From NCBI RefSeq assembly GCF_024666615.1, contig NZ_CP088297.1, positions 2,666,001 to 2,730,000 of the forward strand: DNA of 64,000 bases, read 5' to 3'. The notes under the pieces were generated by a model that worked only from the letters and a program-made list of their open reading frames with translations, was not told the DNA's origin and ran no database searches. Below are positions 56,622-60,838 of this stretch, piece after piece (within the stretch, counting starts at the first letter, position 1; the number at the start of each line of letters is the position of its first letter). The position numbers and the translations under genes are program-made. Origin of the DNA: Aquabacterium sp. J223 (GTDB taxonomy: Bacteria > Pseudomonadota > Gammaproteobacteria > Burkholderiales > Burkholderiaceae_C).

Positions 56622-57881
56622 TCAACGCGCCTTCTGCACCGCCAGCGCATCCACCGCGGGGGCGTCGTTGCCCCAGGCCTGGCGGATGAAGCTGAGCAGC
56701 GCGGCGATGTCCGCGTCCTCCAGGGCCTGGCCGAAGGGCGGCATGCCGTAAGGCCGTGGGTTGCCGGCGGTGGCCGGCGGGAAGCCGCCGTGCAGCACCG
56801 CCTGCAGCGCGTTGGCCGGCGAGGCCAGGGTGACGGACCGGTTGCCGGCCAGCGGCGGGTAGGCCGGCGCGGCGCCCTCGCCGCGTTCGCCGTGGCAGTC
56901 CTTGCAATGCTGACCGTAGAGCCGTTCGCCGCGCGCCAGCACGGCGCCGTCGGCCGGCTTGCCCTTGGGACGCGGCGGGTCGTGCGGCGGCAGGCCCTGC
57001 AGGAACGCCGCCATCGCGCGCAGGTCGGCATCGCTCAGGTGCTGGGTGCTGCCCAGCACCACCTCCGCCATGGGGCCCATGACGGAGGCGCGAGGCGAGA
57101 GGCCGGTCTTGAGCAGCGCGACCACGTCCTCAAGGGGCCAGCGGGCGACGCCCGCTTCCCGGTCGGAGGCCAGCGAGGGTGCGTACCAGCCCTGCATCGG
57201 GATCAGGCCGCCGCCCAGTTCGTTGTCGTCGATGGTCGCGCCGAGGCGGTTGCGGGCCGCGTGGCAGGCCGCGCAGTGGCCCGGCCCGCGCACCAGGTAG
57301 GCGCCCCGGTTCCATTCGGCAGTGCGCTCGGGCGACGGCTCGAAGCGGCCCGGCTCGAAGTACAGCGCCCGCCAGACCGCCAGCGCCCACTGGGTGCCAT
57401 AGGGGTAGCGCAGGTCGTGCGGGGCGTTGGGCCGGTGCACGGCCGGCTGGCGCATGAGGAAGGCGTGCAGCGCGTCGCTGTCCTCGGCGCTCATCAGGGT
57501 GTAGTGCGGGTAGGGGAAGGCGGGGTAGAGCCGCCGGCCGTCCTTCGACCGCCCCTGGTGCAGCGCGCGGCGCATGTCGGCGGCGGTCCAGGTGCCGATG
57601 CCGGTCTCGGCGTCCGGCGTCAGGTTGCTTGCCACCAGCGTGCCGAAGGGCGTGGCGATGGCCAGCCCGCCGGCATAGGCCGGCTGCCCCGGCAGGCTGT
57701 GGCAGCCGGCGCAGTTCCCGGCGCGCGCCAGGTAGGCGCCGCGTTCGACGAGCGCGTCGGTCATGGGCGGGGGTGGGCGGCCGTCCTCCGGCCGCAGCCG
57801 GTCCTGCCACAGCACCCAGGCGGCGAACAGCGCCGCCGCCAGCGCCAGCGCGACGACGAGGCCGATCAGGCGCCGCGTCAT
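56622..57881 (-). CDS. Tri-haem cytochrome c, membrane-anchored
   Basis: 419 aa. An N-terminal hydrophobic helix (LIGLVVALALAAALFAAWVLW) anchors it in the inner membrane, facing the periplasm. Three CxxCH haem sites at C57 (NCAGCHS), C203 (HCAACHA) and C326 (HCKDCHG), with spacing as in the cytochrome subunits of alcohol/gluconate/sorbosone dehydrogenases. It passes electrons from a periplasmic dehydrogenase towards the oxidases. No dehydrogenase gene is next to it. Coupled to the di-haem gene upstream by an ATGA overlap. Confidence 0.88.
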   Translation of the reverse strand: MTRRLIGLVVALALAAALFAAWVLWQDRLRPEDGRPPPPMTDALVERGAYLARAGNCAGCHSLPGQPAYAGGLAIATPFGTLVASNLTPDAETGIGTWTAADMRRALHQGRSKDGRRLYPAFPYPHYTLMSAEDSDALHAFLMRQPAVHRPNAPHDLRYPYGTQWALAVWRALYFEPGRFEPSPERTAEWNRGAYLVRGPGHCAACHAARNRLGATIDDNELGGGLIPMQGWYAPSLASDREAGVARWPLEDVVALLKTGLSPRASVMGPMAEVVLGSTQHLSDADLRAMAAFLQGLPPHDPPRPKGKPADGAVLARGERLYGQHCKDCHGERGEGAAPAYPPLAGNRSVTLASPANALQAVLHGGFPPATAGNPRPYGMPPFGQALEDADIAALLSFIRQAWGNDAPAVDALAVQKAR

Positions 57882-58625
57882 GGCCGCGCCCTGAGCCCGC
57901 TGCCGCAGTCCAGCGGCAACGGCTGCGCGACGGTGGCGGCCGGTTTGGCATCCGCCGGCAACGGTTGCGACGACAGCCACAGCGCCATGGCGGCCACGTC
58001 CTCCTCGGACAACGCCCGGGCGACCCTGGCCATGCAGTCCGGCGCACGGGCCTGACGCAGCCCGTTGCGCCAGGCGCCCATCTGCGCCACCAGGTAGTCG
58101 CGCGACAGCCCCAGCAGCCCCGGCATGCCGGGCTGCACGCCGGTCATCGCCGCGCCGTGGCAGGCGCTGCAGGCCGGCACGCCCCGGGCGGGGTCGCCCT
58201 GGCGCACCAGGGACTCTCCCCGGGCCATCGCCGCCGCCGCGCGCCCCGCGGGTCTGCGGCGCCGGATAGGGCAGGTCGAGACCGGCGAAGTGCTCCGCGA
58301 TCTCGCGCAGGTAGGCGTCCGACAGCGGTGCCAACAGGCGCTCCATCGCCTCGTTGCGGCGCCGGCCCTCGCGGAAGTTGAGCAGCTGCTCGTACAGGTA
58401 GCCGGCCGGCTTGCCGGCGATGCGCGGGTAGTAGCCGTCGTTGGTGGCGCGGCCCTCCCGGCCATGGCAGGCGGTGCAGGCCAGCGTGCGCTGGGCCATG
58501 GTGTCGGGCACCGGGGCGGCCGTCGCCGGAACCGCTGCGGCGCAGGCGGCGAGGACGACCGCGGCGAGGGACCGCGCACAGCGCCGGGCGCCGCGGCTTC
58601 TGGGTTCGTTCAGGTTGCCGCTCAT
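57878..58625 (-). CDS. Di-haem cytochrome c (frame broken mid-gene)
   Basis: ~248 aa when repaired, from ATG 58625. Signal peptide (SLAAVVLAACAAAVPATA), haem 1 at C50 (CTACHG), then YYPRIAGKPAGYLYEQLLNFREGRR, typical of cytochrome c4-like proteins, and haem 2 (CSACHG) in the second half. The frame breaks at the C4 run 58244-58247. Removing one base joins LPYPAPQTRG to RAAAAMARGESLVRQGDP, and the gene then ends in an ATGA overlap with the tri-haem cytochrome. They probably form one electron-transfer unit. Confidence 0.82.
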
Positions 58626-58760
58626 CGCGTCAATTGTGCGGGGGCCGTGGCGTGGGTCACGGCAATCGGTGGCCCACCATGGTTTCCCCACATCAGTCCG
58701 CAGTCCGCGTACCGAAAGCCCAGCATGGAGCCGCATCGTCATGCGGACGAAGGACGCCTC

Positions 58761-59252
58761 ATGAACCGCCGCACCCTCTTCTGCATCGCCACCCTGGCCC
58801 TTGGCGCCGCCACGACGGCCAGCGCCTACGACCCGAAGGCCACCATCGCCGACCTGGACGCCCGCCTGGCCAAGGCCGGCGCGCCGCGCGTGCAGGGCAC
58901 CGAGGCGGTGGCCGGCAAGGACGTGCCGGCGCTGTTCTTCGGCGAACGTAAGATCAACAACAACTACGACGTGGTCGATGCGGTGCGCAAGTCGCACCAG
59001 GCCACCGCGACGGTGTTCGTCAAGGCCGGCGACGAGTTCGTGCGCGTCAGCACCAATGTGTTGACGCCCGAGGGCAAGCGCGGCATCGGCACCCAGCTGG
59101 CCCGCAACCCGGCCTACGAGGCGGTGAGCAAGGGCCAGTCGTTCTGCGGCGCGATCGACGTGCTCGGCACCGCCTACGACGCCTGCTACAACCCCATCAA
59201 GGACGGCAGCGGCCAGGTCATCGGCGCCAGCTACATCGGCCACAAGAAATAA
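58761..59252 (+). CDS. Periplasmic single Cache-type sensor protein
   Basis: 163 aa. Signal peptide [22 protein letters not shown], then the Cache3/Cache2-fusion pattern seen in chemoreceptor sensor regions: [53 protein letters not shown] and [12 protein letters not shown]. Here it is a free periplasmic protein without membrane or signalling domains. Two Cys (FCGAI, DACYN) could form a disulfide. The chemoreceptor begins 11 bases downstream, so it probably acts as that receptor's ligand-binding partner. Confidence 0.8.
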
Positions 59253-59263
59253 GGGCCCGGGCC

Positions 59264-60838
59264 ATGACGCGCTGGATGCGACCCCTTTCGCTGCTGGAGC
59301 GGCTGCCGGTCGGCCGCCAGCTCGTGTTGGCCTTTGCCTGCGTTCTGCTGTTGGCCGCCGCCCTGGGTGCGGAGGCGCTGGTCGGGTTGCGGACGGTCAA
59401 CGAGCGGGCCGCCCTGCTGTCGGACAAGTGGCTCAAGGGCGTCGGCGCGCTGTCCGATGCGCGCGCCCATCTGCTGGAGACGCGCGACCTCGAGGTGCGC
59501 CACAGCCGCACCGCCGACAGCAGCTACCACGCCGAGTACGAAGACAAGATGGCCGAGGTGGAGAAGACCGTCGCGGCCCTGCTCAAGGACCAGGCGGCCC
59601 AGGCCGGCAGCGCCGAGGAGGGCGAGATCGTCGCCACGCTGTCGAAACAGTGGGCCGGCTACCGGCAGGCCCAGCTGCGCGTGGTCAAGCTGGGCCGCGA
59701 CAAGCAGCAGCAGGACGCGGCCGACATCGCGGACGGTGCTTCCGGCATGGCCTTCGAGGAGGTGCAGGGCGCCCTCGGCAAGCTGCTGCAGTTCAACTAC
59801 GACGGCGGCGCCGCGGCGGCCGAAGCGGTCCGTGGTGTGTACCAGAAGGTCCAGCTGGTCGTCGCCGCCACGCTGCTGTGCGCGCTGGGGCTGGGCGGCG
59901 GGCTGGCGTGGACCATCACAAGAAGCCTGCTGCGCCAACTCGGCGGCGAGCCGCGACGTGCGACGGCGGTCGCCCGTGCGGTGGCCGAAGGCCGGCTGGA
60001 CACGCCGGTGGCCCTGCGCGCCGGTGACGAGAGCAGCCTGCTCGCCCACCTGCAGGGCATGCAGGCCCGCCTGGCCACCGCGGTGGGCGAGGTGCGCCGG
60101 GGTGCCGAGCAGGTCGCCCTCGCAAGCGGCGAGATCGCCCGCGGCAACGACGACCTGTCGGGCCGCACCGAGCACCAGGCCCAAGAGCTGCGCCAGACCA
60201 GCGCCACCATGGAGCAACTGGGCGAGGCGGTGCGCACCAGCGCGGGCAACGCCGACCAGGCACGTCAGCTGGCCGAGCAGGCCACCGGCGTCGCCGAGGA
60301 GGGCGGCGAGGTCGTGGGCCGCGTGGTGCAGACCATGAAGGGCATCGACGAGAGCAGCCGTCGCATCGCCGAGATCATCGGCGTCATCGACGGCATCGCC
60401 TTCCAGACCAACATCCTGGCGCTGAACGCCGCGGTCGAAGCCGCCCGCGCTGGCGAGCAGGGCCGCGGCTTCGCGGTGGTCGCGTCGGAGGTGCGCAGCC
60501 TGGCGCAGCGCAGCGCGGACGCCGCCAAGGAGATCAAGAGCCTGATCCAGGCCAGCGTCGAGCGGGTGGGCGAGGGCTCGCAGTTGGTGACGCGGGCCGG
60601 CGAGACCATGCAGAAGGTGGTCACCTCGATCCAGGACGTCAGCCGCATCGTGGCGCAGATCAGCCAGGCCAGCGCCGAACAGCGCGACGGCATGGCCGAA
60701 CTGGCGCAGGCGGTGTCGCGCATCGACACCATGACGCAGCAGAACGCGGCGCTGGTGGAGCAGAGCTCGGCGGCCGCCGGCAGCCTGAGCGAGCAGTCGC
60801 GCCAGCTGGTGTCCGCGGTGGCGGTGTTCCGCACCTAG
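59264..60838 (+). CDS. Methyl-accepting chemotaxis protein
   Basis: 524 aa. TM1 ~20-40, a four-helix-bundle type periplasmic domain to ~190, TM2 ([21 protein letters not shown]), HAMP, methylation helices and the signalling hairpin [27 protein letters not shown], then [19 protein letters not shown]. The C-terminus ends AVFRT with no CheR/CheB pentapeptide. It couples to CheA/CheW, which are not in the window. Encoded directly after the free Cache protein and closed by a strong terminator. Confidence 0.93.

Follow-up and report, generated by a model that had tools for sequence, protein, structure and literature searches.

The 64,000-nucleotide stretch of Aquabacterium sp. J223 DNA analysed here (the window) encodes a free Cache protein just ahead of a chemoreceptor with a four-helix-bundle (4HB) sensor domain, and we propose, with a probability of roughly 0.7, that the two form one chemotaxis sensor split in two proteins. 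An exported Cache protein, stabilised by a disulfide between C129 and C142, would capture a small carboxylate, most likely formate, via R95, T98 and T111, and the loaded protein would dock on the receptor encoded by the adjoining gene, at the membrane-distal tip of its four-helix bundle. Via TM2 and HAMP, the receptor would then relay the signal to its MCP domain, like Tar with maltose-binding protein (MBP). This reading builds on features recognised in the sequence, namely the signal-peptide-like start of the Cache, the 4HB domain, the pairing, the ligand residues, the tip and the Cys pair; from these we infer export, ligand, disulfide, docking and response direction.

The free Cache gene and its receptor neighbour

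The initial annotation had described a separate Cache protein encoded 11 nt ahead of a 4HB receptor, and this arrangement was confirmed by open reading frames, Pfam matches and a signal-peptide-like start recognised by eye. The locus is composed as follows.

58761..59252, + strand: free single-Cache protein (Cache_3-Cache_2 / sCache_3_3), 163 aa (ORF, Pfam, AlphaFold2)
58761..58826, + strand: predicted signal peptide, residues 1-22 (by eye: MNRR, a hydrophobic stretch, ASA before YDP)
59253..59263, + strand: 11-nt spacer, Cache stop to MCP start (sequence)
59264..60838, + strand: chemoreceptor (4HB_MCP_1, MCPsignal), 524 aa (ORF, Pfam)
59378..59854, + strand: periplasmic four-helix bundle of the receptor, residues 39-197 (Pfam 4HB_MCP_1; AlphaFold2)

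The Cache frame is intact from the ATG at 58761 to the stop codon at 59250-59252, and by eye an AAGGA lies 6 nt 5′ of the ATG. Its product matched Cache_3-Cache_2 at 112.3 bits (cut-off 27.7), sCache_3_3 at 95.5 (28.8) and sCache_3_2 at 38.8 bits (Pfam cut-off 28.4), and the AlphaFold2 model had a pLDDT of 91.1. By both Pfam and the model, the C-terminus of the 163-aa protein is the last strand of the Cache domain. A Cache usually forms the extracytoplasmic part of a transmembrane receptor, a context missing here, as the 163 aa hold only an N-terminal signal-peptide-like stretch; this is an odd feature of the window's Cache and no bar to its membership of the Cache superfamily. No TM-like 19-mer was found in the protein by hydropathy scan, the signal peptide itself also falling below that threshold. 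A loose AxA-type signal-peptide test was passed by 69/69 paired Cache homologues, and the window's protein is apparently secreted, judging from its signal-peptide-like start. Two other roles were considered and rejected: lipoprotein anchoring, with a lipobox-like sequence in 0/69 paired homologues, and haem binding via the Cys pair, the protein having no CxxCH.

The receptor matched 4HB_MCP_1 at 70.9 bits (cut-off 27) and MCPsignal at 175.3 bits (34.6). A hydropathy scan placed TM-like segments at residues 20-38 and 198-216, and AlphaFold2 modelled residues 10-225 as four helices (pLDDT 93.2). By eye, an AAGGG overlaps the Cache stop 8 nt 5′ of the MCP ATG, which makes translational coupling of the two genes plausible. 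Since the genome contains 11 4HB family matches (10 above the cut-off) and 22 MCPsignal matches (21 above the cut-off, two of them pieces of one gene), the window's receptor is one of many. Elsewhere in the genome, outside the window, two adjacent matches in separate open frames make up one MCP signalling domain (G000:C1:1339347-1339809), pointing to a frameshift in that receptor gene.

The long ORFs that flank the pair on either side lie on the opposite strand, and no transporter gene was found beside the pair in the window. Upstream of the Cache gene, at 57878-58600 on the − strand, is a divergent cytochrome c gene whose haem motifs CTACHG and CSACHG fall in different frames (ORFs 56622-59243 and 57878-58579), suggesting a frameshift or a sequencing error.

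Conservation of the pairing and of the receptor tip

The initial annotation had proposed a search for the same pair in other genomes. From a GTDB genome search we kept the best 80 of 140 Cache relatives, 64 of which constitute the window's clade (L035-L097 and L099, at least 50% identity); two clade members are fused to a receptor and 62 are unfused. Among these best 80 of 140 relatives the pairing proved near-absolute within the clade: 61 of the 62 unfused members are followed on the same strand by a chemoreceptor, counting L050, in which the receptor's 4HB and signalling stretches are in separate frames or have a late start. The sole exception was L080, whose contig ends 238 nt after the Cache. 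The pairs are mostly from Burkholderiales, and the same arrangement was found outside the window's class in a Bacteriovorax MAG (L097; receptor 4HB 32.8 bits, cut-off 27). Sphaerotilus natans ATCC 13338 and Inhella crocodyli are among the carriers of the pair. Rows with identical last 120 residues of the frame were dropped before counting, and L098 and L099, which have disrupted frames, were left out of the residue counts, the Cys pair of L099 included. Over 70 non-redundant pairs, the spacer between Cache and receptor had a median of 50 nt (−1 to 273, 66/70 at most 120 nt), some of the long values resting on unsure start codons, as in L097, where an upstream ATG gives 40 nt. Spacer hairpins, which could raise Cache over receptor expression, are suggestive in some homologue loci, as 8/45 homologue spacers beat shuffles at p<0.05 (mean z −0.64); the window's 11-nt spacer is too short for this test, and the hairpins carry no weight in our interpretation.

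For a reciprocal test, profiles of the free Cache and of the paired 4HB were searched separately over the same 399 family genomes, and per genome only the best 9 (Cache) or best 7 (4HB) candidates were scored, so that a missed copy is possible. The Cache profile gave 26 genomes at 244 bits or more and one orphan-type match at 205, the remaining matches, almost all within long open frames of the kind that receptors have, reaching at most 123 bits. The 4HB profile gave 25 genomes at 246 bits or more, the next best match scoring 166. All 25 are also Cache genomes; in each, the two matches share contig and strand, and their ends are 41-147 nt apart. The extra Cache genome without the 4HB, G030, carries a fused form and was the only one of the 399 in which either type was found alone among the candidates scored. 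A class-wide search of 369 genomes recovered the free paired type in 2, both of the window's family, and two further matches that were receptor-embedded. Because the pairing is kept in 61/62 unfused relatives and in the same 25 of 399 genomes, it is not due to chance, and chance adjacency or a spurious ORF was rejected on these counts and on the Pfam scores.

Sixteen of the 80 loci (best 80 of 140 relatives), mostly alphaproteobacterial, had a free Cache and no receptor in the flanking DNA examined, which in three of them extends less than 2.1 kb downstream. Receptor-less free Caches (L030, L031, L032, L098, L100-L114, L140) came from alphaproteobacteria, Cupriavidus, an NC10 bacterium and others, and some lie on plasmids. 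Their existence shows that a free Cache can serve other ends; the 18 orphans checked all lacked the Cys pair. In a Cache tree thinned to 100 of 116 rows, three receptor-embedded Caches fell among the orphans, so a single origin of free Caches is not supported by the tree. Of the 87 free Caches listed, 71 entered the structure alignment together with 2 fused and embedded rows, 72 in all. In another family of the order, a free Cache-like domain in shortened form occupies an open frame of 138 aa, L024 (G058). Beside Cache and MCP, no third ORF family occurred in more than 6/80 loci within 5 kb (ORFs of at least 100 aa, a subset of them scanned with Pfam, antisense artefact excluded); an apparent third family in 30 loci was rejected as an antisense artefact, consisting of minus-strand ORFs overlying the pair. 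An ORF that resembles glycerate kinase, named by eye, was seen in the flanks of 6/80 loci, four paired and two fused (e.g., L045 2598-3911), and may reflect local synteny or hint at glyoxylate-related metabolism.

The receptors of the pairs are themselves distinct. A tree was built from 62 paired 4HB rows and from 71 unpaired ones of these and related genomes, and in it 61/62 paired rows formed one clade (support 100/100), the exception being the distant Bacteriovorax row, whose placement is unsure. Among loci numbered 35 and up, receptors longer than 560 or shorter than 470 aa (start unsure, or cut) were left out of this tree, and seven receptors occur twice among the 62 paired rows and likewise in the counts of tip conservation. 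The AlphaFold2 model of the 4HB has two membrane-distal loops, near residues 83-85 and 146-148; in Tar, maltose-binding protein docks on the equivalent loops. Two conserved segments surround them, identified by row conservation with the tip position taken from the model.

59483..59548, + strand: conserved distal tip of helix 1-helix 2, residues 74-95
59690..59737, + strand: conserved distal tip of helix 3-helix 4, residues 143-158

In the first segment, R74, E77, H80, D85, Y88, E91, Y92, E93 and K95 were each present in 97-100% of 61 paired rows; in the 71 unpaired rows six of these nine residues were below 10%, the others being R74 (30%), E77 (23%) and D85 (44%). In the second, L143, R145, D151, A152, D154 and G158 reached 89-100% in the paired rows versus 44, 13, 8, 69, 11 and 17% in the unpaired. 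D85, Y88, Y92 and G158 were invariant in the 61 paired rows, and Y88 and Y92 occurred in only 3-4% of the 71 unpaired rows. Conservation of the paired 4HB climbed toward the distal tip (Spearman rho 0.36, nominal p 1.4e-5, 61 rows, kinship ignored), a trend absent in the 71 unpaired rows (rho 0.06, p 0.51). Across 64 pairs (L097, L050, L099 and receptors below 460 aa left out), 4HB distances correlated with Cache distances at r 0.71 and with those of the receptor's own signalling domain at r 0.49; the partial correlation of 4HB and Cache was 0.54, and 0/2000 permutations were as high. Both the distance correlation and the tip conservation partly reflect shared ancestry, close relatives being equally weighted. 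Mean distances were 0.25 for the Cache, 0.26 for the signalling domain and 0.58 for the 4HB; the Cache is thus about as conserved as the signalling domain, and most of the 4HB varies fast, a contrast that weighs against the two-part reading.

A conserved tip of this kind could also be a small-molecule site. The aspartate site of Tar is also distal, and the 4HB might sense a ligand of its own directly, sharing only an operon with a Cache that serves another receptor or buffers a metabolite, a role for which the free Caches without a nearby receptor offer some precedent. We consider this improbable: the two types coincide in 25 genomes, the paired 4HB type was not found alone among the candidates scored, tip conservation is absent in unpaired receptors, and the Cache has been fused to receptors without a 4HB, as described below. 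Taken together, the conserved pairing, the fusions, the dedicated 4HB clade with its tip and the tracking distances support the two-part receptor of the initial annotation, in which the soluble Cache protein was suggested to bring the ligand.

Putative ligand residues, cysteine pair and fused receptors

The solved structures nearest to the Cache model were the formate-bound chemoreceptor domains 8py0 (Z 21.3, 140 residues) and 8py1 (Z 18.8, 124), followed by matches at Z 12.7 or below. The candidate ligand residues were located by their spacing.

59043..59093, + strand: putative formate-binding residues R95 (59043-59045), T98 (59052-59054) and T111 (59091-59093)

This spacing is the same as that of R142, T145 and T158 in PacF and in formate-bound 8py0, and changes to the three PacF residues affect formate binding, according to the available part of the report (PMC12501870). 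All three residues were unchanged in 69/69 paired, 3/3 fused and 18/18 orphan Caches, and in receptor-embedded Caches R95 was kept in 24/25, T98 in 22/25 and T111 in 23/25. A gut-bacterial sCache_3_3 domain with the reported residues has been assigned formate, as stated in the accessible text of PMC12415202. The Cache probably captures formate via its conserved R/T/T residues. In Piscinibacter sakaiensis 201-F6 (L081 602-4460), fdhA (902.5 bits, cut-off 666.25) and fdhD (175.3, cut-off 140.9) lie upstream of the pair on the same strand, an adjacency seen in 1 of the best 80 of 140 relatives. Formate dehydrogenase was rejected as a genome-level marker; it is non-discriminating because it is widespread in the family (352/399 genomes at E 1e-100, 247 above the curated cut-off).

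The same two-part receptor could serve another ligand, for instance glyoxylate, acetate or a further small acid, or else a different anion. Organic acids predominate among known sCache ligands, as far as the consulted portion of PMC8698456 goes, the glycerate-kinase-like ORF recurs in the flanks of 6/80 loci, and the R/T/T residues alone neither fix specificity nor prove formate. We regard a different ligand as possible but rather unlikely, given that the two best structural matches are formate-bound and far outscore all others, that R95, T98 and T111 are unchanged in 90/90 free or fused Caches, and that formate is the ligand assigned to the gut-bacterial domain. The same invariance bears on whether the Cache carries a ligand at all. 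The distances, the tip and the coincidence imply a functional link whatever the ligand, and this would also suit a Cache that acts as an inhibitor or adaptor, shaping the receptor with nothing bound; the invariant ligand residues would then be needless, and we hold this to be very improbable.

The paired Caches are further marked by two cysteines.

59145..59147, + strand: C129, first Cys of the pair (row counts)
59184..59186, + strand: C142, second Cys, expected opposite C129 (row counts; putative pairing from predicted strands)

AlphaFold2 predicts a hairpin (128-134/137-147) with C129 on its first strand and C142 on its second. C129 was present in 70/70 paired Caches (one cut by a contig end) and in 0/3 fused, 0/18 orphan and 0/25 embedded Caches, and C142 in 70/70, 3/3, 0/18 and 0/25, respectively. 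We read the two as a putative periplasmic disulfide.

In 3/20 genomes of one genus, Pelomonas, representing three species, the Cache is fused to a receptor (L089, L091 (= L145) and L146). The fused Cache has no signal peptide and is joined to the receptor C-terminus. Hydropathy places the two TM-like segments of these receptors 7-9 residues apart; hence the 4HB is gone. All three fused Caches keep the R/T/T residues and C142, and C129 is replaced by Ser, Ser and Arg. Such receptors have their C-terminal end in the cytoplasm, where disulfides do not normally form, and the fused Cache, predicted to be cytoplasmic in all three, could not act on a periplasmic tip. Retention of the ligand residues with loss of C129 agrees with C129-C142 being a structural disulfide of no use in the cytoplasm. 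In the Cache tree, the three fused Caches formed one clade (100/95) beside an ordinary pair of the same genus (87/91), and this nesting makes the fusion look derived. The fused Caches had a dN/dS of 0.07 between two close copies and 0.50 versus the third, so that constraint may be partly relaxed. The fusion strongly hints that it is the Cache that does the sensing in the paired receptor type and that, with the Cache attached, the receptor can do without a 4HB.

With its restriction to the paired Caches (70/70, versus 0/18 orphan and 0/25 embedded), the Cys pair could itself be the sensor. Cross-strand disulfides can be redox-labile, and the Cache might report redox or folding stress to the receptor through C129-C142 instead of a bound metabolite. 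This seems improbable, since the ligand residues are equally invariant and the fused copies retain them and give up C129, as would suit a structural bond. Returning to a ligand-binding Cache, a broader and more tentative reading is that of a portable sensor: a formate-type Cache would act in trans from the periplasm via a dedicated 4HB tip and, in one genus, would have been transferred, without its signal peptide, to the cytoplasmic C-terminus of a receptor whose own sensor domain was lost, so that the same metabolite could be read outside or inside the cell. The fused forms amount to a natural relocation experiment.

Comparison with known systems

Free Caches are already annotated in databases. 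A partial literature search yielded no account of a Cache serving a chemoreceptor as its dedicated carrier, and wording on a free or cytoplasmic Cache was found only in PMC549065. The part of that 2004 report available to us describes, in Rhodopseudomonas, a stand-alone Cache whose gene is predicted to form an operon with that of a prokaryotic ligand-gated channel, and proposes that the two cooperate (PMC549065). As in the window, a free Cache and a receptor share one predicted operon; however, the case concerns one bacterium and a channel rather than a chemoreceptor, and the same part describes no ligand or conserved pairing (PMC549065). In TorT-TorS, LuxP-LuxQ and XylFII-LytS, a ligand-binding protein outside the cytoplasm likewise talks to a receptor, but, on the accessible text of PMC6321045, those receptors are sensor kinases and the carriers are ligand (periplasmic) binding proteins, whereas the window has a chemoreceptor and a Cache.

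The formate chemoreceptors PacF, McpF and Atu0526 (PDB 8py0, 8py1) have a built-in Cache, as given in the consulted portions of PMC12501870 and PMC8698456, and share the Cache family, the fold and the R/T/T residues with the window's protein. Their Cache is the receptor's own extracellular domain, whereas the window's is a separate protein without TM helices; because it lies outside the membrane protein, the pair differs from an ordinary Cache receptor. Should a free Cache be able to carry a ligand, some of the numerous 4HB receptors that lack a known ligand may be read by small neighbours annotated only as 'Cache domain-containing protein'.

The closest parallels in operation are the binding-protein-dependent 4HB receptors of enterobacteria, MBP-Tar, ribose/galactose-binding protein-Trg, DppA-Tap and LsrB-Tsr, together with PstS-CtpL of Pseudomonas aeruginosa, as covered in the available part of PMC4926252. 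In these systems a soluble periplasmic protein brings the ligand to the receptor, the role we infer for the window's Cache, and the 4HB receptor domain is common to the window's receptor and the enterobacterial cases. The carriers differ: that of the MBP-Tar type is a solute-binding protein encoded with a transporter and serving both, whereas the window's is encoded beside the receptor by a separate gene, has no TM-like segment and, by Pfam and fold, is a Cache without the solute-binding-protein fold. Because its carrier is a Cache and no transporter gene adjoins, the pair falls outside the MBP-Tar class as usually described and would represent a compact carrier-receptor system, with no adjoining transporter, a predicted ligand and a predicted docking tip.
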